A stretch of DNA of 35,355 nucleotides from a virus: positions 1 through 35,355 of the IMG/VR virus record IMGVR_UViG_3300019889_000026; one strand, given 5' to 3'. Of this stretch, positions 2,095 to 34,149 are shown one piece after another. How positions within the stretch are numbered: position 1 is the stretch's first letter; the number at the start of each line of letters is the position of its first letter. The translations under genes and the position numbers were made by a program. Below the pieces are notes generated by a model that did no database searches, was not told the origin of the DNA, and was given only the letters and a program-made list of their open reading frames with translations.

Positions 2095-2290
2095 CCTGTT
2101 GACCGGCGGTCTGATGATCAAGACCAGCAACGGGAACGCCATCCAGAACCCGCTCGTGGGCACCGCTCACAAGGCCGCTGCGGACATGGTCCGGTATGCC
2201 TGCGAATTCGGCATGACGCCGTCCGCCCGCTCGCGCATCGCCGCCGGCCCGCTGGACGACGGATCCAAGTTCGACGGCCTGCTTGCCTAA
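1808..2290 (+). CDS. terS: phage terminase small subunit, P27 family
   Basis: 160 aa. It has the P27-family hallmarks: an N-terminal LKLIMGNPGKRPIN segment (residues 14-27), then EPKPENRIPDPPECL, then a helical region with the LDRAALAAYCQAYGRW motif. This subunit recognises viral DNA and delivers it to the large terminase at the portal. The ATG overlaps the open frame of the preceding DUF7220 gene, and the stop overlaps the TTG start of the large subunit by 8 bp, as expected for coupled terminase genes. Length is normal for the family. Confidence 0.95.
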   Translation: MSKLRSSAKPTALKLIMGNPGKRPINPREPKPENRIPDPPECLTTVAAIEWMRVSEELGALGLLTGLDRAALAAYCQAYGRWVQAESAIAEMAKRDLLTGGLMIKTSNGNAIQNPLVGTAHKAAADMVRYACEFGMTPSARSRIAAGPLDDGSKFDGLLA

Positions 2291-3863
2291 TCTTCGGCGG
2301 TCGGCAGAGCGAGCCGAGCGGGTCCGCAAGTTCATCGAATGCCTGATCGTCCCGTCCGGCGTAGGCCAGGGCAGGCCGTTCCGGCTGCGGCCTTTCCAGC
2401 GCCGGTTCGTCCAGGCGATCTATGAGCCCCACACCTTCAAGGGGCGGAAGTGGCGGCGCGTCGTCCGGCGCGGCATCCTTTCGATCGCCCGGAAGAACGG
2501 AAAGACGGCCCTGATCGCCGCCCTGGTGCTGGCCCACCTGGCCGGCCCCGAGGCGGTCCGAAACGGCGAGATCTACAGCGCCGCCAACGAGCGCGAGCAG
2601 GCGGCGCAGGTCTTCAAAGTCTGCCGCCAGATGATCGAGGCGGATCCCGAGCTGAAGCGCCGAGCCCAGCTTGAGATCGTGGAGAGCACGAAGACGATCG
2701 TCAGCCGGAAGAACGGCAGCCTGTACCGGGCAATCTCGGCCGAGGCCGGGACCAAGATGGGGCTCAACCCGAGCGTCGTCGTTTATGACGAGCTGGCGCA
2801 GAGCAAGAACCGGGCTCTCTACGATGCCCTCGACAGCGGCATGGGCGCCCGTGAGGAGCCCCTGTTCATCGTCATCTCGACGCAGAGCAATGATCCGACC
2901 CATGTCCTTTCGCAACTGATCGATGACGGGCTCCGGGCCGAAGACCCCACGATCGTCTGCCACCTCTACGCCCTGCCCGACGACGTCGAAGACATTTACG
3001 ACGAGAGCGTCTGGCCGCTCGCAAATCCGGCTCTGGACGACTTCCGGTCGCTGGAGGATATGCGCGCGGCTGCGGCACGGGCGTCCCGTATGCCATCGTT
3101 CGAGAGCACCTTCCGCAACCTCTACCTGAACCAACGGGTCGACAGCCAAAGCCCCCTGATCCCCCGCTCGGAATGGGAGGCCTGCCTGAGCGACGAGGGC
3201 CTCCAGCCCGGCGAGCGGATCTATCTCGCGCTCGACCTTTCCAGCACGACCGACCTGACGGCCCTGGTGGCCTGCTCGGCGGACAGCGGCGACCGTGTAG
3301 CGGCTTGGTTCTGGAAGCCCGGAGGCCTGATCAAGGAGCACGAGCTTCGGGACCGGGCGCCCTACAGCCTATGGAAGGACCAGGGGTGGATTGATGCTCC
3401 GCCAGGCCGAGCCATCGACTACGGCTACGTCGCCGAGCGCATCGCCGAGATCGCCCACGACTACGACGTGGTCGGGCTGGCCTACGACCGATGGCGCATC
3501 AAGGATCTGCTCCGGGAGTTCGATCGCATCGGGCTCCGGGGCTACACCGACGACGACAAGCCCATCCCCGGCGCCCTGCGGCTCTGCCCATGGGGCCAGG
3601 GCTTCCGGGACATGAGCCCCGCAATCGACGCCTGGGAGATCTCCATCCTCCAGCGGCGGTTCGCCCACAACGGCAACCCGGTCCTCGCCTTCTGCGTCGC
3701 CAACGCCATGGCGGTCCAAGACCCGGCCGGGAACCGCAAGCTGGACAAGAGCGCGACCCGGTTCCGGATCGACGGCGCGGTCGCCTGCGCCATGGCGGTC
3801 GGGCTCAAGGCCCGGGACCTTCAGCGGGTCGTGATCCCGTCCTACCAAATGCTTTTCGTCTAG
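2283..3863 (+). CDS. terL: phage terminase large subunit
   Basis: 526 aa from a TTG start that overlaps the end of terS by 8 bp. The N-terminal ATPase has a Walker A-like SIARKNGKT (residues 67-75) and Walker B VVVYDE (165-170), with FIVISTQ as the coupling segment (195-201). The C-terminal nuclease has the acidic residues expected for an RNase H fold: D318 in LALDLSS, D402 in LAYDRW and D498 in RIDGAVA. The protein translocates and cuts concatemeric phage DNA into the prohead. Order and length match the HK97-type Terminase_1 family paired with P27 small subunits. No good ATG exists near the N-terminus, and TTG gives a full-length family match. It is followed after 8 bp by the Acb2-like gene, whose ribosome site overlaps the stop codon. 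Confidence 0.95.
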   Translation: MPNLRRSAERAERVRKFIECLIVPSGVGQGRPFRLRPFQRRFVQAIYEPHTFKGRKWRRVVRRGILSIARKNGKTALIAALVLAHLAGPEAVRNGEIYSAANEREQAAQVFKVCRQMIEADPELKRRAQLEIVESTKTIVSRKNGSLYRAISAEAGTKMGLNPSVVVYDELAQSKNRALYDALDSGMGAREEPLFIVISTQSNDPTHVLSQLIDDGLRAEDPTIVCHLYALPDDVEDIYDESVWPLANPALDDFRSLEDMRAAAARASRMPSFESTFRNLYLNQRVDSQSPLIPRSEWEACLSDEGLQPGERIYLALDLSSTTDLTALVACSADSGDRVAAWFWKPGGLIKEHELRDRAPYSLWKDQGWIDAPPGRAIDYGYVAERIAEIAHDYDVVGLAYDRWRIKDLLREFDRIGLRGYTDDDKPIPGALRLCPWGQGFRDMSPAIDAWEISILQRRFAHNGNPVLAFCVANAMAVQDPAGNRKLDKSATRFRIDGAVACAMAVGLKARDLQRVVIPSYQMLFV

Positions 3864-3871
3864 GAGCGACC

Positions 3872-4129
3872 ATGGCCGAGACCTTCGACAGCACCTCCGA
3901 TCGGCGCACCGTCAACAACGTGATGCGCCATTCCTACCGGGTGCTTTCCGATGACGAGAAAGCGCAGATGGAAATGGTCAAGGATCTCGGTCTCGAGTTC
4001 CTGAATTGCCTGCACGGCATCGGCCAGACCAGCCCGGAGGGCGACCGGCAAGGCTCCCGCGAGCTGAGCCTCGCGCAGACCAAGATCGAAGAGGCCGTGT
4101 TCTGGGCCTGCAAGCACGTCACCCGGTAG
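3872..4129 (+). CDS. Acb2/Tad1-type hairpin-domain protein, candidate anti-CBASS sponge
   Basis: 85 aa. The segments SYRVLSDDEKAQM (residues 21-33) and SRELSLAQTKIEEAVFWACK (62-81), followed by HVT, match the small helical hairpin family (DUF7681, Acb2/Tad1 hairpin). Characterised members form oligomers that bind cyclic oligonucleotide messengers and so blunt CBASS or Thoeris signalling. The N-terminal 20 residues are probably a variable extension. AGGAG at 3862-3866 overlaps the large terminase stop and gives a strong start at 3872. The gene sits between packaging and capsid genes and is followed by an unusual 18-bp inverted repeat. Family membership is by remembered pattern, not a search. 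Ligand and activity are inferred; many family members remain untested. Confidence 0.8.
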   Translation: MAETFDSTSDRRTVNNVMRHSYRVLSDDEKAQMEMVKDLGLEFLNCLHGIGQTSPEGDRQGSRELSLAQTKIEEAVFWACKHVTR

Positions 4130-4157
4130 CCGCCGGTCATAGGAAATCACTGATCGC

Positions 4158-4203
4158 GTTACCGATCGTCGGCAACTCCTCCGGTTTGCCGACGATCGGT
4201 AAC
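4158..4203. repeat. perfect 18-bp inverted repeat, 10-nt loop
   Basis: The arms at 4158-4175 and 4186-4203 are exact reverse complements and flank a pyrimidine-rich 10-nt loop. No T-run follows, so it is not a classical terminator. As RNA it would form a long stem suited to RNase III-type processing or attenuation between the Acb2-like gene and the capsid gene. As DNA it could be an operator. The role is inferred from position only. Confidence 0.85.
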
Positions 4204-4233
4204 ACGCAGTAACCGCCGGTGCGACCGGCGGCT

Positions 4234-4258
4234 GGGGCGGCCTTCGGGTCGCCCCTTT
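4234..4258 (+). terminator. UUCG-capped GC hairpin before the capsid gene
   Basis: GGGGCGGCC pairs with GGTCGCCCC (one G-U pair) around a TTCG tetraloop at 4234-4255, followed by TTTCGTTT. The shape is that of a weak intrinsic terminator or a 5-prime mRNA stabiliser. A second short dyad, CCGCCGGT/ACCGGCGG, lies just upstream at 4213-4231. The T-run is short, so readthrough into the capsid gene or an mRNA-end role is as likely as termination. Confidence 0.5.
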
Positions 4259-4275
4259 CGTTTGGGGAGCCGTCC

Positions 4276-6222
4276 ATGCCGAAACTCGATCGGGCCTATA
4301 GCGTCCTCACGGTGCGCTCGGTCAACGACGAAGCGCGCGTCATTGAGGGCATCGCCTCGACGCCCCGGCCTGACCGCATCGGCGACGTGGTCGAGCCCAT
4401 GGGCGCCAAGTTCGCCCTGCCGATGCCCCTACTCTGGCAGCACAACGCATCGCAGCCGGTCGGGCATGTCGAGTTCGCCAAGCCGACCAAGGACGGCATT
4501 CCCTTCCGCGCTGTGATCGCCCGCATCACCGACCCCGGGATCCTCAAGGACCGTGTGGACGAGGCCTGGCAGAGCGTTAAGGCCGGCCTCGTGCGGGCCG
4601 TGAGCATCGGCTTCCGCGCCCTGGACCGCGAGTTCATCGAAGGCGGGACGCGCTTCAAGACGTGGGAATGGTTGGAGCTGTCACTCGTGACGATCCCGGC
4701 CAATGCCGACGCAACCATAGACACCATTCGATCGGTCGACACCGAGGTCCGGGCCGCGACAGGCCATTCGGATCTCTCGGTCGGCCAGACCGTGCAGCCC
4801 GGCGCCTCGGGAACCCTGAAACAGACCGCGAAGAAAGGGGCCAAGGCTATGCCGAGGACCATCGCAGAACAGATCTCTTCTTTCGAGGCGACTCGCGCCG
4901 CGAAGGCCGCCCGGATGGGCGACATCATGAACAAGGCCGGCGAGGAGGAAGCGACCCTCGATCAGGCTCAGGAGGATGAGTACGACGGGCTCGCCGACGA
5001 CGTGAAGTCGATCGACGCCCATCTCGTCCGCCTCCACAATCAGGAGGCCGTCAACGCCCTGGCCGCCAAGCCGGTCATCGTGACCGACTCCCGGTCCGCA
5101 GCCGACGCCCGCTCGCAGAGCCCGATCGTCATCGTCCGCGACGTGAAGCTGCCCCCGGGCATCGAGTTCGCCCGCTACGTCAAGACCCTGGCCGCTGCCA
5201 AGGGTAACCCGCAGCAGGCGTTGGAGATCGCCCGGAACATCTACCCGGACAATCCCCGCATCCACAACGTGCTCAAGGCCGCCGTGGCCGCCGGCACGAC
5301 CACCGATCCGACTTGGGCTGGCCCGCTGGTCGATTACCAGACCTTCGCGGGCGACTTCATCGAGTTCCTGCGCCCGACCACGATCATCGGCAAGTTCGGC
5401 GCGGGTGGCATCCCCTCGCTGTTCAACGTGCCCTTCAACATCAAGATCCCGGCTCAGACCAGCGGCGGCAATGCCTACTGGGTCGGCGAGGGCAAGCCGA
5501 AGCCCCTGACCAAGTTCGACTTTGACCAGATCGAGCTGCGCTGGGCCAAGGTCGCGGCGATCTCCGTCCTGACCGAGGAACTGGTGCGCTTCTCCAACCC
5601 CTCGGCCGACACCCTGGTCCGCAACGCCCTCGCCGATGCGATCCGGGCGCGGCTGGACCTGGACTTCGTTGACCCGGCCAAGGCGGCTGCGGCCAATGTG
5701 AGCCCGGCGTCGATCACCAACGGCGTCGCCGGCATCGCCTCGACCGGCGATGTCGCCTCGGATCTCGACGCGCTGTATACCGCCTTCATCACCGCCAACC
5801 TCTCGACGGCGAACGCGGTCTTCATCATGTCCGAGATCCTCGCCCAGCAGATCGCTCGGGTGAAGACCCCGCTCGGGCAGCCGGAGTTCCCGGGGATCGG
5901 CCCGAAGGGCGGCTCTCTGGAGGGCGTGCCGGTCATCACCTCGCAGTATGCCCCGGCCGGGAACATCATCCTGGTCGCGGCGGATCAGATCTACCTCGCC
6001 GACGATGGGCAGGTTGTGATCGACGCCAGCCGCGAGGCTTCCCTGGAGATGCTCGACAACCCGACCAACTCCAGCTCGCCGACCGTTGCCGCGACCTCGC
6101 TGGTCTCGCTGTGGCAGACCAACTCGATCGGCCTGCGCGCCGAGCGGTTCATCAACTGGCAGAAGCGCCGGGTCGACTCCGTGGCCCGCATCACCGGGGC
6201 CAGCTACACCCCGACCACCTGA
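4276..6222 (+). CDS. prohead protease-major capsid protein fusion (HK97 type)
   Basis: 648 aa. Residues about 1-155 form an HK97-family prohead protease: EGIASTP near the start, catalytic His56 in LLWQHN, catalytic Ser110 in RAVSIGF and the conserved WLELSLVTIPAN (132-143). A linker (about 156-191) leads to a major capsid protein. Residues 192-265 look like the acidic coiled scaffolding (delta) domain of capsid precursors. About 330-648 look like the HK97 capsid fold, with the typical VPFNIKIPAQ, AYWVGEGKPKP and late LVSLWQTNSIGLRAERFINW segments. The start at 4276 is chosen because GGGGAG lies 7 nt upstream and the protease begins there; the open frame extends further upstream through the hairpin. 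Met192 (codon at 4849) is preceded by AAAGGGG and may give a separate capsid protein. The product self-assembles into the icosahedral shell. Confidence 0.93.
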   Translation: MPKLDRAYSVLTVRSVNDEARVIEGIASTPRPDRIGDVVEPMGAKFALPMPLLWQHNASQPVGHVEFAKPTKDGIPFRAVIARITDPGILKDRVDEAWQSVKAGLVRAVSIGFRALDREFIEGGTRFKTWEWLELSLVTIPANADATIDTIRSVDTEVRAATGHSDLSVGQTVQPGASGTLKQTAKKGAKAMPRTIAEQISSFEATRAAKAARMGDIMNKAGEEEATLDQAQEDEYDGLADDVKSIDAHLVRLHNQEAVNALAAKPVIVTDSRSAADARSQSPIVIVRDVKLPPGIEFARYVKTLAAAKGNPQQALEIARNIYPDNPRIHNVLKAAVAAGTTTDPTWAGPLVDYQTFAGDFIEFLRPTTIIGKFGAGGIPSLFNVPFNIKIPAQTSGGNAYWVGEGKPKPLTKFDFDQIELRWAKVAAISVLTEELVRFSNPSADTLVRNALADAIRARLDLDFVDPAKAAAANVSPASITNGVAGIASTGDVASDLDALYTAFITANLSTANAVFIMSEILAQQIARVKTPLGQPEFPGIGPKGGSLEGVPVITSQYAPAGNIILVAADQIYLADDGQVVIDASREASLEMLDNPTNSSSPTVAATSLVSLWQTNSIGLRAERFINWQKRRVDSVARITGASYTPTT

Positions 6223-6224
6223 TC

Positions 6225-6773
6225 GTGATCTTCCACTCTACCCCCTGGCAGACCGGGAACATCGGCGGAGGCCTCAACGCCTTCGTCGATCTCCTTCCCG
6301 ACGATGCCTGGGTCTGCCTACGCGATGGCGACACCCTTTGGCTGTCGCCGAGCTGGGGCGAGCAGGTTGAGCAGGTCGTGGCCGCGCACGGAGATGCCTT
6401 CTCCGTGATCGGGGCCATGACCAATCGGCTGCGCTCGCCCCTTCAGCTCCATGGCGGCCTCTTCAGCGACGAGGCCGACATCGGGCGCCACCGGGACATC
6501 GCTCTCCAACGCTGGGAAGAGCACGGCCCCCTCGTCCAGCCGCTCCGCGCGGGCGTCCTGGCCGGCATGTGCCTGATCTTCCCGAAGCGGGTCTGGCGGG
6601 CGCACCCCTTCGTTGAGCGGTCGCTCCTGTTCGATCAGCGGTTCTGCGGCGACGTGCGGGCGGCCGGCGGCCAGCTCGGGGTCGCGCTGGGCCTGTACCT
6701 GTTCCACCTTTACCGCTGGGGCCGGCGCAACCCCTACAGCTCTGTGGGCCACCTGGCCGGCGCCACCGAATGA
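6225..6773 (+). CDS. glycosyltransferase-like protein (GT-A type)
   Basis: 182 aa from a GTG two bases after the capsid stop. No ATG is available before residue 65, and this start gives a natural first strand VIFHSTPW. It looks like a short GT2/GT-A sugar transferase: DDAWVCLRDGD (residues 26-36) carries a DxD-like metal site at D34/D36, and AGMCLIFPKRVW (113-124) resembles the acceptor-side loop of these enzymes. It would transfer a sugar from a nucleotide donor to an acceptor, perhaps a virion protein given its place between capsid and portal genes. The ribosome site is poor, suggesting translation coupled to the capsid gene. It overlaps the next glycosyltransferase by 4 bp. Substrate is unknown. 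Confidence 0.65.
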   Translation: MIFHSTPWQTGNIGGGLNAFVDLLPDDAWVCLRDGDTLWLSPSWGEQVEQVVAAHGDAFSVIGAMTNRLRSPLQLHGGLFSDEADIGRHRDIALQRWEEHGPLVQPLRAGVLAGMCLIFPKRVWRAHPFVERSLLFDQRFCGDVRAAGGQLGVALGLYLFHLYRWGRRNPYSSVGHLAGATE

Positions 6774-8149
6774 AGGTCGGGATCGGGGTCACGACCCACA
6801 ACCGGCGCGAGGTCTTCGACCGCACGATGGTCGAGATCCGGCGCTTCGCTCCTCCGGGCGCCCGCATCGTTGTGGTCGATGATGCCAGCACGGTTCCCGT
6901 GCCCGGCGCCGACCACCGGTTCGAGGTCAACGCCGGGATCGCCCGGGCCAAGAACAAGTGCCTGGAGCTGCTGGAGGACTGCGACGAGATCTTCCTGTTC
7001 GATGACGACACCTATCCGATCGTCGCGGACTGGCACCTGCCCTACATCCGGTCCGGCGAGCCGCACCTGATGTACATCTTCCTCGACTTCGCGGATCGCC
7101 CGTCCCTCCGGGACAACGTCCAGCTCTACCGCGACAGCAAGATCACGGCCTACAGCCATGCCCGGGGCTGCATGCTGTACCTGAAGCGGGTCTGCCTGGA
7201 GCGGGCCGGCGGCATGAACCCGGTCTTCGGCCGCTGGGGTTGGGAGCATCCGAACCTCTCGGAGAGGATCCACAATCTCGGGCTGACCACCTTCCGCTAT
7301 GCCGACGTCACCGACAGCGACCGGCTGATCTACAGCTCCGACGAGCACCTCGCCGTCACCTCGACGGTTCGAGGCCAGGAGCGCATCCACCAGATCGCGG
7401 TCAACCGGCCCCTGCATCAGGCCCTCGTGGGCTCGACCGAATTCGTCCCGTACCGCGAGACCGAGGACGTGATCGTCACATGTTATTTCGCCGGCCTGCC
7501 CGACCTCCAGAAGCTCGGGGCGGCCTGGGAACCGGACTACTCCAGCCTCCGCCCGCTGATCGACTCCCTGGCCGGGCCGAAGCTGGTCATCCTGCACAAC
7601 TGCCTGGACCAGCCCGACACCGAAACCGTCAAGCACGTCCGGGTCGAGGCCAGCATCTCGCCCTATTGGCAGCGATGGATCTCGATCCTCCAATACCTTC
7701 GGAGCCGGCCGGACATCGGCAAGGTCTTCTGCGTCGATGCGACCGACGTGGAGATGCTCAACAACCCTTTCCCCAAGATGGGCGAGCACCTGTACCTCGG
7801 CGACGAGCCGAGCCAGCTCGCCTGCCCATGGATGGTCCAGAACCATCCGGCGCTCTTCCTGCGCGGCTTCATCCAGAAATACGGCCGGCTCCCCCTCCTC
7901 AACGCCGGCCTGGCCGGCGGTCGCCGGGAGCTGGTGATCGCCTTCATCCAGAAGCTCCTCGGGACCTATTTCGACGCCAAGGCGGACGCGCATCACAAGC
8001 GGCTGCCCGGGGCCGGCGATAGCGACATGGGCTGCTTCAACTATGCCGCGCGGACCTTCTTCGGATCCCGGATCCGACACGGTCGCGAGGTCAATACCGT
8101 CTTCAAGACCTTTGATCGGACCGGCCCGAGCTGGTTCCGCCACAAGTGA
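6770..8149 (+). CDS. two-domain glycosyltransferase, GT2-like
   Basis: 459 aa. The N-terminal domain (about 1-215) is GT2-like: VGIGVTTHNRR at 3-13, IVVVDDAS at 33-40, NAGIARAKN at 54-62, the metal-binding FDDD at 77-80 and WGWEHPNLSER at 156-166. The second domain (about 233-459) looks like another GT-A fold: VIVTCYFAGLPDLQ, then VFCVDATDVEML at 319-330, LNAGL at 378-382 and DSDMGCFN at 417-424. The protein may therefore add two sugars in sequence. It begins in the ATGA overlap with the preceding glycosyltransferase-like gene, so the two are translationally coupled. The position inside the head module suggests virion protein glycosylation; host surface modification is the alternative. Cytosolic, with no membrane segment seen. 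Confidence 0.8.
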   Translation: MKVGIGVTTHNRREVFDRTMVEIRRFAPPGARIVVVDDASTVPVPGADHRFEVNAGIARAKNKCLELLEDCDEIFLFDDDTYPIVADWHLPYIRSGEPHLMYIFLDFADRPSLRDNVQLYRDSKITAYSHARGCMLYLKRVCLERAGGMNPVFGRWGWEHPNLSERIHNLGLTTFRYADVTDSDRLIYSSDEHLAVTSTVRGQERIHQIAVNRPLHQALVGSTEFVPYRETEDVIVTCYFAGLPDLQKLGAAWEPDYSSLRPLIDSLAGPKLVILHNCLDQPDTETVKHVRVEASISPYWQRWISILQYLRSRPDIGKVFCVDATDVEMLNNPFPKMGEHLYLGDEPSQLACPWMVQNHPALFLRGFIQKYGRLPLLNAGLAGGRRELVIAFIQKLLGTYFDAKADAHHKRLPGAGDSDMGCFNYAARTFFGSRIRHGREVNTVFKTFDRTGPSWFRHK

Positions 8150-8644: not shown

Positions 8645-10041
8645 TGAACATCTTCGGCCTGTCGATCACGAAGGCCCTGCCGACCAATCTCCGGCCGCCG
8701 GACAACCGGGGCGGCTGGTATCCGATCATCCGCGAGCCCTTTTCCGGGGCTTGGCAGCAGAATGTCGAGTGGTCGACCGACGAGGTGCTGGGCTATTTCG
8801 CGGTCTACCGCTGCATCTCCCTGATCAGCTCCGACATCGCCAAGATGCGGGTCAAGCTGGTGCAGGAGGATGCGTTCGGGATCTGGCACGAGGTCTCGGT
8901 CCCGGCGTTCTCGCCGGTCCTGCGCAAGCCCAATCTGTATCAGACCAGGATCCAGTTCATGCAGAGCTGGGTCCAGTCGAAGCTGATCAACGGCAACGCC
9001 TACATCCTCAAGGAGCGCGACCAGCGCGGCGTCGTGATCGGGCTCACGGTGCTCGACCCCTGGCGGGTGCAGCCGATGGTCTCGACCGATGGATCGGTCT
9101 TCTATCAGCTCTCGCCCGACCGGCTCGCCGGCCTCGAATTCGGGATCACGGCACCGGCCCGCGAGATCATCCACGACCGCTGGAACACGATCTTTCATCC
9201 CCTGGTCGGCACCTCGCCGATCTTCGCCTGCGGCCTCGCTGCGGCGCAGGGGCTCAAGATCCAGAACAATTCCGCCTCGTTCTTCGCCAACGGTTCCAAT
9301 CCGGGCGGCATCCTGACTGCGCCTGGCGCGATCAGTGACGAGACGGCAGTCCGGCTCAAGCAACATTGGGACACCAACTATAGCGGCGCCAATGTTGGCA
9401 AGGTCGCGGTGCTGGGCGACGGGCTCAAATATGAGCGCATGGCAGTCAACGCCGTCGATGCCCAGCTCATCGAGCAGCTCAAGTGGACCGCCGAGGTGGT
9501 CTGCGCGGCCTTCGGCGTCCCGGCCTACATGGCCGGCATCGGCCCGGCCCCGGTCAACACCAACATCGAGGCGCTGTCGCAGCAGTATTACAGCCAGTGC
9601 CTTCAGATCCACGTCGAGAGCATCGAAGTGTGCCTGGACGAGGGGCTGGCGCTGCCGGATCCCTACGGCACCGAGTTCGACACCGATGGTCTGCTGCGGA
9701 TGGACACGGCGACGCTGATCGCCGCCGAGGCGACCGCGATCGGCGCCGGCATCAAGAAGCCGGACGAGAGCCGGAAGCGGCTCAACCTGCCCCCGGTCGA
9801 GGGCGGCGACACCCCGTACATGCAGCAGCAGAATTTCAGCCTTGCCGCGCTCGCCAAGCGCGATCGGGACGACCCGTTCGCCAAGCCGGCGCCGGCCCCG
9901 GCCGCGCCAGCCGGACAGACCGAAACCGCGCCAGCGCAGATCGGCCAGGCTGACCCGGAAGACGAGCCCGAGGCCGACCCGACCGTGGCGGCCCGCTTCG
10001 CCGCTCGTCTGACGCGGCGGCTTCTCCAGGCGGCGGCATGA
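8644..10041 (+). CDS. phage portal protein, HK97 family
   Basis: 465 aa. Hallmarks include VLGYFAVYRCISLISSDIAKM (about 39-59), NGNAYILKERD (118-128), the WNTIFHPLVGTSPIFACGLAAAQGL segment with FFANGSNPGGIL after it, and the crown-side FGVPAYMAGIGPAPVNTNIEALSQQYYSQCLQ. The dodecameric portal forms the DNA entry channel at one capsid vertex and docks the terminase. The C-terminal about 60 residues are a proline/alanine-rich tail ending in a basic helix. ATG 8644 overlaps the preceding TGA, and the stop overlaps the next start by 4 bp. The gene lies downstream of the capsid fusion, whereas HK97-type phages usually place it upstream. Confidence 0.95.
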   Translation: MNIFGLSITKALPTNLRPPDNRGGWYPIIREPFSGAWQQNVEWSTDEVLGYFAVYRCISLISSDIAKMRVKLVQEDAFGIWHEVSVPAFSPVLRKPNLYQTRIQFMQSWVQSKLINGNAYILKERDQRGVVIGLTVLDPWRVQPMVSTDGSVFYQLSPDRLAGLEFGITAPAREIIHDRWNTIFHPLVGTSPIFACGLAAAQGLKIQNNSASFFANGSNPGGILTAPGAISDETAVRLKQHWDTNYSGANVGKVAVLGDGLKYERMAVNAVDAQLIEQLKWTAEVVCAAFGVPAYMAGIGPAPVNTNIEALSQQYYSQCLQIHVESIEVCLDEGLALPDPYGTEFDTDGLLRMDTATLIAAEATAIGAGIKKPDESRKRLNLPPVEGGDTPYMQQQNFSLAALAKRDRDDPFAKPAPAPAAPAGQTETAPAQIGQADPEDEPEADPTVAARFAARLTRRLLQAAA

Positions 10042-11573
10042 TCCGCGTCGTCATCGGTCCGCCGACCGCTGGCAAATCAACCTATGTCGAAGCGCACGCC
10101 TCGGCCGGCGACGTGATCGTGGATTACGACGCCATCGCTCATGCGCTGGGCTTCCCGGATGACCACGATGTCGAGGGCTCGATCCGCCTCGTCACTCGGT
10201 CGGCCCGCGTCGCGGCGATCAACCGGATCATGGCGGGCCTCGATGACGACGCTTGGATCATCGCGACCAACCCCAAGCCGTTCCGGCTCCAGGCCTACGC
10301 CGATGCCGGCGCGGAATTCATCGTGATCGATCCGGGCAAGGACGAGTGTCTGCGGCGAGCCGCAGCGCAGGGCCGCCCGGCCGGCGTCTTCGCCGCGATC
10401 AATAGCTGGTACGCCGATCCGCCGGTCCTGCCAGGGGAAAAGGGAGGGCCGGGACTGATGCCTCGGGGAATGACCGACGTGTCCGAGATGGCCGATGCCG
10501 TCTTCGACGCAGTGAAGATCTATGTCTCCAGGGAAGTCGGCGGCGCCATCGCCCCGGCCATGGCCTCCGCGACCTCGGTCGCCGAAGCACTGGAGGTGAC
10601 GCACGGCCTGATCGTCTCGCTGGAGGCCCAGCTCGTGGAGACCAAGGCGGCAAACGCAGCCTTGATCGACCGCATCGTCGCACTCGAAGCGCGGGAGGCC
10701 GTTGTCGGCCCTGCGGGGCCGCCAGGGCGCGACGGGGTGGACGGGGCGGCCGGACCCCAAGGACCGCCCGGCGAGGCCGGCCCTGCCGGCCCTGAAGGCC
10801 TCCCGGGCCTTGCTGGGGCCGATGGCGCCGCTGGTGCGCCCGGACCCCAAGGATTGCCCGGCGAGGCCGGCCCTGCCGGCCCTGACGGCCTCCCTGGCCG
10901 CGACGGGGCCACCGGGGCGCCCGGACCCCAAGGTGACCCCGGCCAGGCCGGCCAGGCCGGCCCGGAAGGGCCTCCGGGCGACAGCGGCGTCGCTGGCGTG
11001 CCCGGCGTCAAGGGCGACGCGGGCGAGGTAGGCCCAGCCGGCCCGGAAGGCCCTGTCGGCCTCCCTGGCCTCCCTGGCCGCGATGGGCGCGACGGCATGC
11101 CCGGACCGCAGGGCGAGCGCGGCCTGGACGGGCCGCAGGGCATCACCGGGGCCGCCGGCGAGGCAGGGGCTCGGGGCGACCGGGGCGAGAAGGGTGATGC
11201 CGGCCGCGACGGCTTCAGCCCGGAGAATTTCACCGTCGAGTATGACGGCAAGCACACCCTGAGCTTCGGCATGGAGGCCCCCGGCGGCATCTCCTACGCC
11301 ACCGACATCCATGTGCCTTGGCCGATCTTCCGCGGCGTGTTCAAGGCCGGCGAGGGTTACGAGTGGGGCGACCTCGTCACGCTGGGCGGCTCGATGCACT
11401 TCGCCCATCGCGAGACCATCGCCAAGCCCGAGACGAGCGACGACTGGCAGCTCTGCGTCAAGCGGGGCCGCGACGGCAAGGACGGCAAGGACGGGGATCG
11501 CGGCGAGCGCGGCGCCCCTGGCCCGTCCGGAAAAGACCTGACACAGATCGGCCCGGACGGGAGTCGCTTCTGA
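10038..11573 (+). CDS. P-loop kinase-like/collagen-like/carbohydrate-binding-like chimera
   Basis: 511 aa with at least four parts. Residues 1-125 form a small P-loop domain with Walker A GPPTAGKS (7-14), resembling phage polynucleotide-kinase-like or AAA proteins. Residues about 175-222 are a predicted coiled coil. Residues about 224-393 are near-perfect Gly-X-Y collagen repeats. Residues about 394-478 contain FRGVFKAGEGYEWGDLV and DDWQLCVKRGRDG, the pattern of small carbohydrate-binding-like domains in phage fibre proteins. A second Gly-X-Y block (475-497) follows. Collagen-like blocks form trimeric rods in virion fibres. The P-loop domain in the same chain is unusual and could be an enzyme or a captured neighbour. 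The ATGA overlap with portal and the connector gene after it place the protein in head-tail assembly, perhaps as a decoration or neck fibre. Confidence 0.8.
   Translation: MIRVVIGPPTAGKSTYVEAHASAGDVIVDYDAIAHALGFPDDHDVEGSIRLVTRSARVAAINRIMAGLDDDAWIIATNPKPFRLQAYADAGAEFIVIDPGKDECLRRAAAQGRPAGVFAAINSWYADPPVLPGEKGGPGLMPRGMTDVSEMADAVFDAVKIYVSREVGGAIAPAMASATSVAEALEVTHGLIVSLEAQLVETKAANAALIDRIVALEAREAVVGPAGPPGRDGVDGAAGPQGPPGEAGPAGPEGLPGLAGADGAAGAPGPQGLPGEAGPAGPDGLPGRDGATGAPGPQGDPGQAGQAGPEGPPGDSGVAGVPGVKGDAGEVGPAGPEGPVGLPGLPGRDGRDGMPGPQGERGLDGPQGITGAAGEAGARGDRGEKGDAGRDGFSPENFTVEYDGKHTLSFGMEAPGGISYATDIHVPWPIFRGVFKAGEGYEWGDLVTLGGSMHFAHRETIAKPETSDDWQLCVKRGRDGKDGKDGDRGERGAPGPSGKDLTQIGPDGSRF
10724..11214 (+). 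repeat. collagen-type Gly-X-Y coding repeat
   Basis: About 55 consecutive Gly-X-Y triplets encoded by GC-rich 9-bp units. A larger unit beginning CGGACCCCAAGG recurs at 10751, 10841 and 10922, spaced 90 and 81 bp, both multiples of 9. Expansion and contraction by slippage or recombination would keep the frame and change rod length. Confidence 0.9.
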
Positions 11574-14072: not shown

Positions 14073-14197
14073 GCCTTTGGGAGCTGTGCGCTCTCGTTGA
14101 CGGCTTCAACGCATCGCAGGGCGGCGAAGGCGATCAGGTCGAAGGGATGTCGGTCGAGCGGTTGAGGGAACTCAACCCTCCACCGACGCTCCATTGA
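13635..14197 (+). CDS. tail assembly chaperone, -1 frameshift product (gpGT-like)
   Basis: A -1 slip at GGGAAAA (13961-13967) joins codons 1-111 of the short form to the frame resuming at 13967 and ending at 14197, about 187 aa. The added part contains LSLARLLGLGGALGYTADQV followed by WSMSLWELCALVDGFNASQG, the conserved second-part motif of tail chaperones, which has no plausible start of its own. The heptamer reads ACG GGA AAA in the zero frame, exactly the X XXY YYZ pattern. Its 3-prime end overlaps the reverse-strand gene by 26 bp. Confidence 0.85.
13961..13967 (+). promoter_or_regulatory. slippery heptamer GGGAAAA for -1 frameshifting
   Basis: G GGA AAA in the zero frame of the tail chaperone gene. 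This is one base different from the lambda G/T site GGGAAAG and is in the correct phase. The GA-rich and hairpin-prone sequence after it could act as stimulator. Confidence 0.88.
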
Positions 14198-14594
14198 GCG
14201 CGGTCCACTTCTTGTCTGCGTCCTCGCGGGCGAGGCCAGTGAGGCCGGGGAAGCAGTCGTCGTCGGGCGAGATCCTGGATGCTTCCCGATAGGCTTGGGC
14301 GACCTCGGCCATCTCCCCGGCGGAGATCTCCCCGGCCTTATTCAGGGCCTCAAGCCGGCTCGAAAGCCGGCTCCGGTTGAAAAGCATCTGCGTGAGGGCC
14401 GCCCGGCTCTGTGCGTCGTCGCCCTTGGCGCAGGCCCAGCCCATGGCGTCCGCCGTTCCCTGCTGCTTCGCATAGTCGAGATAGAGCGGGGCCGGGTCGG
14501 CCTGGCCGATCGTCAATGAGTCGATCTGGGTCGCGCCGAAGGCTACGGCGAGACCAGCTGCGACGGCCCCAATGGCACTGACCAATAAATTCAT
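14172..14594 (-). CDS. reverse-strand moron: secreted or membrane-anchored small protein
   Basis: 140 aa, the only gene on the reverse strand inside the tail module. Residues 4-20 are hydrophobic with little charge and look like a signal peptide or membrane anchor. No lipobox cysteine is seen. The rest is mostly helical, with only two cysteines (C55 in GWACAKG, C114 in DDDCFPG) that could form a disulfide outside the cytoplasm. CGGAGA at 14603-14608 is spaced 8 nt from the ATG. A promoter with a dyad lies directly upstream, in the start of the tape measure gene. A periplasmic protein expressed separately from late genes suggests a lysogenic-conversion or superinfection-exclusion role. The IGQADPAP peptide (29-36) recurs in the gene at 34146. 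Family not recognised. Confidence 0.75.
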   Translation of the reverse strand: MNLLVSAIGAVAAGLAVAFGATQIDSLTIGQADPAPLYLDYAKQQGTADAMGWACAKGDDAQSRAALTQMLFNRSRLSSRLEALNKAGEISAGEMAEVAQAYREASRISPDDDCFPGLTGLAREDADKKWTALNGASVEG

Positions 14595-33414: not shown

Positions 33415-33619
33415 TTTTTGCCGCCAGTGCGCCGCCGATCTGTTCGGGTCGCATCATGACTTCGTTGACGACTTCGCCGGCCTGACTTCGGAAGCCGAAT
33501 GGCAGGAGGGCCGGGCCGCCGTTGTCCTGTGCGAAGGCTGCGGTCCAATCCAGGTCGATCCCTTGGGCTCATGTGTGTCGAAGGATTGCCTGAAACATCA
33601 CGGGGAGGCTGATCAATGA
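33407..33619 (+). CDS. small zinc-ribbon-like phage protein
   Basis: 70 aa. FCRQCAADLFG near the start, LCEGCG in the middle and CVSKDCLKHH at the end give two CxxC pairs plus a CxxxxC and His residues, enough for one or two zinc sites. Small proteins with this CxxC ... LCEGCG-xxxVD ... C pattern are widespread in phages and function is unknown. It overlaps its neighbours by 8 bp upstream and 4 bp downstream. Confidence 0.7.
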   Translation: MADFCRQCAADLFGSHHDFVDDFAGLTSEAEWQEGRAAVVLCEGCGPIQVDPLGSCVSKDCLKHHGEADQ

Positions 33620-34149
33620 GCATGAAACAAGACGGACCTTTGCCCCGCCAGGACGGCGCCGCAATGAGCCCTTCCGATGCGGCCATCATTGAGCGCACGA
33701 GGGAAGATGCTGTCCTGGCCTGCGGCACCTGCAATGCCTGCTGCTATAGCCCCGTCGCGCTCCGCCCCGAGCGCGGCGACAACCCCGAGGCCTATCAGCT
33801 CGCCCTTTCGCACGATACGAGCGCCCCAAACGGCCTGACCATGCTGACCCTGGATCGCAATCCCGATGGGTCGTGCTACGCGCTCAAGGATGGCCGCTGC
33901 TCGATCTGGCCGAAGCGACCGGCGGTCTGCCGCAACTTCGATTGCCGCCGGCTCTTCTGGATGTACGACAAGGCCCAGCGCCGGGAGCTGATCGCCAAGG
34001 GCTACTTCAAACGGACCGTGTTCGATGCTGGCCGCATGCGAGGCGCCACACTGGAGGATGGCCCGGGGCTTCGCGAGGTATGCCGCCGCGTCAATTTCGG
34101 AGCGCGGTCGATCACCTTCATGGAACGCTGGCGCGGGGTGAAGCCATGA
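33616..34149 (+). CDS. YkgJ-like cysteine-cluster protein
   Basis: 177 aa. CGTCNACC (about 36-43), then CYALKDGRCSIWPKRPAVCRNFDCR, is the cysteine-cluster pattern of YkgJ-type proteins; the cysteines probably hold a zinc or iron-sulfur cofactor. GGGGAGG (33602-33608) precedes the ATG. The family is widespread in bacteria and of uncertain enzymatic role. In this operon it may act in host takeover. It overlaps its neighbour by ATGA. Confidence 0.85.
   Translation: MSMKQDGPLPRQDGAAMSPSDAAIIERTREDAVLACGTCNACCYSPVALRPERGDNPEAYQLALSHDTSAPNGLTMLTLDRNPDGSCYALKDGRCSIWPKRPAVCRNFDCRRLFWMYDKAQRRELIAKGYFKRTVFDAGRMRGATLEDGPGLREVCRRVNFGARSITFMERWRGVKP

Follow-up and report, generated by a model that had tools for sequence, protein, structure and literature searches.

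What is the role of a gene for an 85-amino-acid protein that lies between the terminase and capsid genes of a phage? Studied Acb2 members sequester the alarm molecules with which bacteria trigger the shutdown of infected cells, and an earlier note, made by reading the DNA, had named this gene a candidate anti-CBASS gene of the Acb2/Tad1 type. We followed up the proposal in the whole stretch of viral DNA, 35,355 nucleotides long (IMG/VR record IMGVR_UViG_3300019889_000026; hereafter the window), and among relatives of the protein.

Reading frame, family and predicted fold

The gene and its immediate neighbours are the following.

2283..3863 (+): terminase large subunit gene (terL), upstream neighbour (PF20441, PF03354)
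3862..3866 (+): Shine-Dalgarno sequence AGGAG, overlapping the terL stop TAG (3861-3863), with the ATG 5 nt downstream (read from the sequence)
3872..4129 (+): acb2-like gene, 85 aa; arm 1-21, helices ~27-51 and ~63-84, loop insertion ~53-61 (translation, Pfam and structure model)
4276..6222 (+): prohead protease-major capsid protein fusion, downstream neighbour (PF04586, PF05065)

The translation of 3872-4129 (+) is MAETFDSTSDRRTVNNVMRHSYRVLSDDEKAQMEMVKDLGLEFLNCLHGIGQTSPEGDRQGSRELSLAQTKIEEAVFWACKHVTR, followed by a stop codon, and contains both segments that had been cited for the family assignment, SYRVLSDDEK and SREL...EEAVFW. The ribosome site overlapping the terL stop and the adjoining capsid gene were also found as the earlier note had described them.

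A search of Pfam with hmmscan bore out the proposed family. It returned a single family, PF24729 (Acb2_Tad1_hairpin), with an E-value of 3e-18 and a score of 66.2 bits, the curated cut-off being 27 bits, and residues 21-85 of the protein aligned to positions 1-58 of the 58-position profile. When the gene was compared with those of two relatives (L002 and L105), third codon positions were the most variable, with dN 0.27 and dS 1.44 for L002 and dN 0.31 and dS 1.01 for L105, dS being near saturation. The acb2-like gene is under purifying selection. This third-position-weighted variation, together with the Pfam E-value, indicates that the open reading frame did not arise by chance.

The PADLOC and NCBIfam models gave no match to the protein, and the PHROG matches were weak and fell in families without known function. 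A single-sequence phmmer search of the PDB yielded nothing significant (best E 0.23, T4 Vs.4). A second PDB search, with a profile built from nine relatives, placed Acb2 homolog 43 (9ptq) first at E 2e-4, with T4 Vs.4 (7uq2) at E 0.007 and PaP2 Acb2 (8h2j, 8ixz) at E 0.009; Tad1 ranked lower, below unrelated chains, at E ~0.7. The protein shows low sequence identity to all Acb2 proteins that have been tested.

An AlphaFold2 monomer model, computed with 54 window and locus sequences as input, is an alpha-hairpin with helices at 27-51 and 63-84 and a mean pLDDT of 83.5. Both helices, for the most part above 90 in pLDDT, correspond to the two long antiparallel helices of Acb2, while residues 1-20, in which a counterpart of the short N-terminal helix of Acb2 would lie, form a low-confidence region. 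The first seven Foldseek ranks for the predicted hairpin are all Acb2 chains. The top match is T4 Vs.4 with cGAMP, with a probability of 0.97, a TM-score of 0.5-0.6 and an E-value of 0.27, which is not significant; poor E-values can be expected for so short a hairpin. The model has no beta strand and thus lacks the N-terminal antiparallel beta-sheet domain of Tad1, for which reason we place the protein, as modelled, with the Acb2 type rather than the Tad1 type of PF24729. The profile, the solved-structure search, the fold search and the conserved ligand-site residues described below all agree, and together they strongly support placing the protein in the Acb2/Tad1 hairpin family. The Acb2 family is already known, and the 85-aa protein adds one member to it.

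Ligand-site residues and the N-terminal arm

The ligand site was mapped on an alignment of the clade with Vs.4 of T4-like phage and PaP2 p26, and conservation was counted in 83 distinct clade sequences and in a wider set of 98 family sequences. Y22, which aligns with T4 Y8 and PaP2 Y11, and K37, which aligns with PaP2 K26, are each the same residue in 83/83 clade sequences. T70, the counterpart of T4 T68 (PaP2 T74), is retained in 82 of the 83, and R63, the counterpart of PaP2 R67, does not vary in any of the 98 family sequences. We take K26 and R67 of PaP2 Acb2 to be ligand-contact residues; a literature search for mutants of the two found none. Activity of T4 Acb2 is lost in the Y8A mutant (PMC12657218, PMC12657230), T68M is described as reducing its binding affinity (PMC12657230), and its F82 stacks against a nucleotide base (PMC12657218). 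The F82 position is occupied by Thr84 in the 85-aa protein. As the founding PaP2 Acb2 has Ala88 there, a phenylalanine at this position is not a family-wide feature.

The N-terminal extension of 20 residues that had been noticed is present. It is not peculiar to this copy, since the arm is common to about 80 distinct phage homologues, which were assembled here. Most of the 83 clade sequences follow the consensus S-T/A-S-D-x-R-x-x-N-N-V-M-R-H-x-Y-R-V-L (also written STSDxRxVNNVMRHxYRVL). R19 and H20 are found in 83/83 sequences, N15 and N16 in 82/82, R12 in 77/78 and D10 in 76/78. The clade has about 21 residues ahead of the ligand tyrosine, compared with 10 in PaP2 Acb2 and 7 in T4 Acb2. The nine-residue insertion in the hairpin loop (~53-61) is rarer than the arm and otherwise occurs only in L002, L037 and L105.

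As the dinucleotide pocket of Acb2 combines N-terminal and C-terminal parts of two protomers (PMC10419184), it is plausible, by analogy, that the conserved arm beside the ligand tyrosine contributes to the pocket or to the protomer interface. A bolder version, which we regard as doubtful, would make the arm-bearing clade a distinct Acb2 subfamily, with D10, R12, N15, N16, R19 and H20 forming part of the pocket and with a ligand preference unlike that of studied Acb2 proteins. The literature searched reports no ligand for the clade, which is the sole part of this work that might be new.

A variable slot between terL and the capsid gene

Two clade members, used to scan IMG/VR, retrieved 104 and 114 relatives. 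In three distinct annotated phage genomes a homologue is recorded as a hypothetical protein, namely in Sinorhizobium phage Aussie, where it lies between head-tail genes, 'Dunaliella viridis virus SI2' and Manatee Spring podovirus. From the reading of its open reading frames, L002 places the homologue near an endolysin-like gene in a Mu-like-looking prophage. The homologue adjoins a gpA terminase gene in L010 and a portal gene in L014; at other loci it stands beside DNA polymerase A, helicase or PD-(D/E)XK genes, and one lies in an early/recombination region. A first profile scan of genome contigs with the clade alignment found no relatives, and a second found one MAG carrying a relative, in which a search for a SMODS cyclase gave no match. 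The phage records searched contain nothing close, at the nucleotide level, to the first 25 kb of the window, and a known counter-defence family is extended here to a phage lineage without a close match in those records.

In L196-L201, the six loci whose TerL is most similar (84-86% identity), the capsid gene directly follows terL and there is no acb2; their terL-capsid gap is ~135-175 nt, and three of the six have one common junction sequence. At L202/L105 (TerL 78%), a relative that is 66% identical sits in the same slot. Given its absence from the six loci, other cargo in the slot elsewhere and the differing neighbourhoods of homologues in unrelated phages, the acb2-like gene can be regarded as accessory, placed in a variable slot, and not as a structural component. 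The family tree, built on 77 columns, is poorly resolved, so one entry and two entries of the window and L105 genes into the slot are not separable. With its changing cargo, the slot may repay a search for further accessory genes in these phages. Across L195-L248, the slot (window 3864-4275) was seen to hold an NAD-dependent epimerase (L246), a Dam methylase (L248) and a beta-helix protein (L233), and in L239, L243 and L244 it is filled by proteins without assigned identity.

Three further features lie between the acb2-like gene and the capsid gene.

4158..4175 (+): left arm of a perfect 18-bp inverted repeat (sequence analysis)
4186..4203 (+): right arm of the same repeat (sequence analysis)
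4234..4255 (+): terminator-like hairpin GGGGCGGCC-TTCG-GGTCGCCCC then TTTCGTTT, just ahead of the capsid gene (sequence, and sequences of relatives)

The 18-bp inverted repeat after the gene, which the earlier note had reported, is indeed perfect, and it reaches 21 bp at 95% when extended. Folding of the 161 nt at 4130-4290 is far better than that of shuffled versions (z -5.96). The IMG/VR viral contigs scanned contain no exact match to the complete repeat, nor was the repeat found in the relatives examined. We considered the repeat as the operon terminator and rejected it, as no T-tract follows it and it is missing both from those relatives and from the IMG/VR exact matches. Whether or not they carry acb2, L196, L198, L200, L201 and L202 have a counterpart of the hairpin at 4234-4255 just ahead of the capsid gene, and this putative terminator therefore belongs to the operon, independently of acb2. 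For a structured RNA in the gap, covariation support among six sequences is weak and their alignment poor, and every Rfam match in the gap fell short of its family's gathering score. In relatives without acb2, the place of 4130-4275 also appears to hold long stems, unrelated in sequence.

Other features of the window were recorded along the way. Within the head gene module, where the portal gene follows the capsid gene, 6770-8149 encodes a possible glycosyltransferase (weak PF02709 match) retained in L196 and L199-L201. Directly after the portal gene, 10038-11573 encodes a protein of 511 aa that weakly matches the AAA_33 P-loop at its N terminus and then has three collagen-repeat stretches. 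A 140-aa open reading frame on the opposite strand among the tail genes, 14172-14594 (-), matches no Pfam family and may carry a signal peptide, and 33616-34149, in the mostly unannotated right-hand region, encodes a CxxCxxCC zinc/iron-chelating domain protein (PF03692).

Proposed function and comparison with known systems

On the sequence evidence, the 85-aa protein is probably an Acb2-type sponge for CBASS cyclic oligonucleotides, a reading to which we assign a probability of about 0.77. In the infected cell, the protein would form a hexamer of alpha-hairpins, and this hexamer would bind the cyclic di- and/or trinucleotides that a host CBASS cyclase produces. The bound nucleotides would be held uncut, and through this sequestration the killing effector would stay off. 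The earlier note had mentioned CBASS and Thoeris signalling as what studied members of the family block; the CBASS half stands as what an Acb2-type protein would suggest, whereas the Thoeris half is weak, because the N-terminal beta domain of Tad1 is absent and sequestration of gcADPR is described for Tad1 and Tad2 (PMC12043709).

A sponge of the same family might have a main target other than CBASS, such as type III CRISPR cyclic oligoadenylate, Thoeris gcADPR or a Panoptes-type nucleotide. Several nucleotide classes are bound within the family: cA3, which is common to NucC effectors and type III CRISPR, is a ligand of both Acb2 and Tad1, and T4 Acb2 binds the Panoptes 2',3'-c-di-AMP (PMC12043709, PMC12657218). 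The clade's own conserved arm and Thr84 would also fit such a target; for gcADPR, the missing beta domain speaks against it, and we judge this alternative unlikely as a whole. The replaced T4 F82, together with PHROG families without known function, could also point to a decayed member that has lost nucleotide binding, or to a host-regulating protein that reuses the hairpin. Purifying selection and the near-complete conservation of Y22, K37, R63 and T70 in the clade make this highly improbable. A part in head assembly or packaging would suit the late-operon position between terminase and capsid, seen also in L105/L202, and the terminase and portal neighbours in L010 and L014. It is hard to reconcile with the slot that lacks the gene in six loci of 84-86% TerL identity and with the homologues that unrelated phages carry in their lysis, replication and early regions, and we give it very little weight.

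The putative CBASS sponge can be set beside the studied members of the family. With Acb2 of PaP2/PaMx33 (p26; PDB 8h2j, 8h2x) it shares the alpha-hairpin domain and the YRxLS-E motif, and PaP2 Y11/K26/R67/T74 correspond to window Y22/K37/R63/T70. The PaP2 protein is 93 aa long against 85 here, the hairpin and its loop are shorter here, and the window arm is ~11 residues longer, with another conserved sequence. T4-like Acb2 (Vs.4; PDB 7uq2) is the best Foldseek match; T4 Y8/T68 correspond to Y22/T70 and the second helix is similar, AKTKLKEASMWACRAV against AQTKIEEAVFWACKHV, whereas F82 of T4 is replaced by Thr84, R63 is Asp in T4 and the T4 hairpin is longer. Acb2 homolog 43 (9ptq) is the top profile match among solved chains (E 2e-4, REKSVFKTKLEEAMFFATK), although the N-terminal arm is unmatched in the alignment. 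Tad1 (7uav, 8kbg) belongs to PF24729 by name and resembles the protein in the C-terminal helix, a weak match at E ~0.7, but its N-terminal beta-sheet domain (PMC12043709) has no counterpart in the 85-aa protein.
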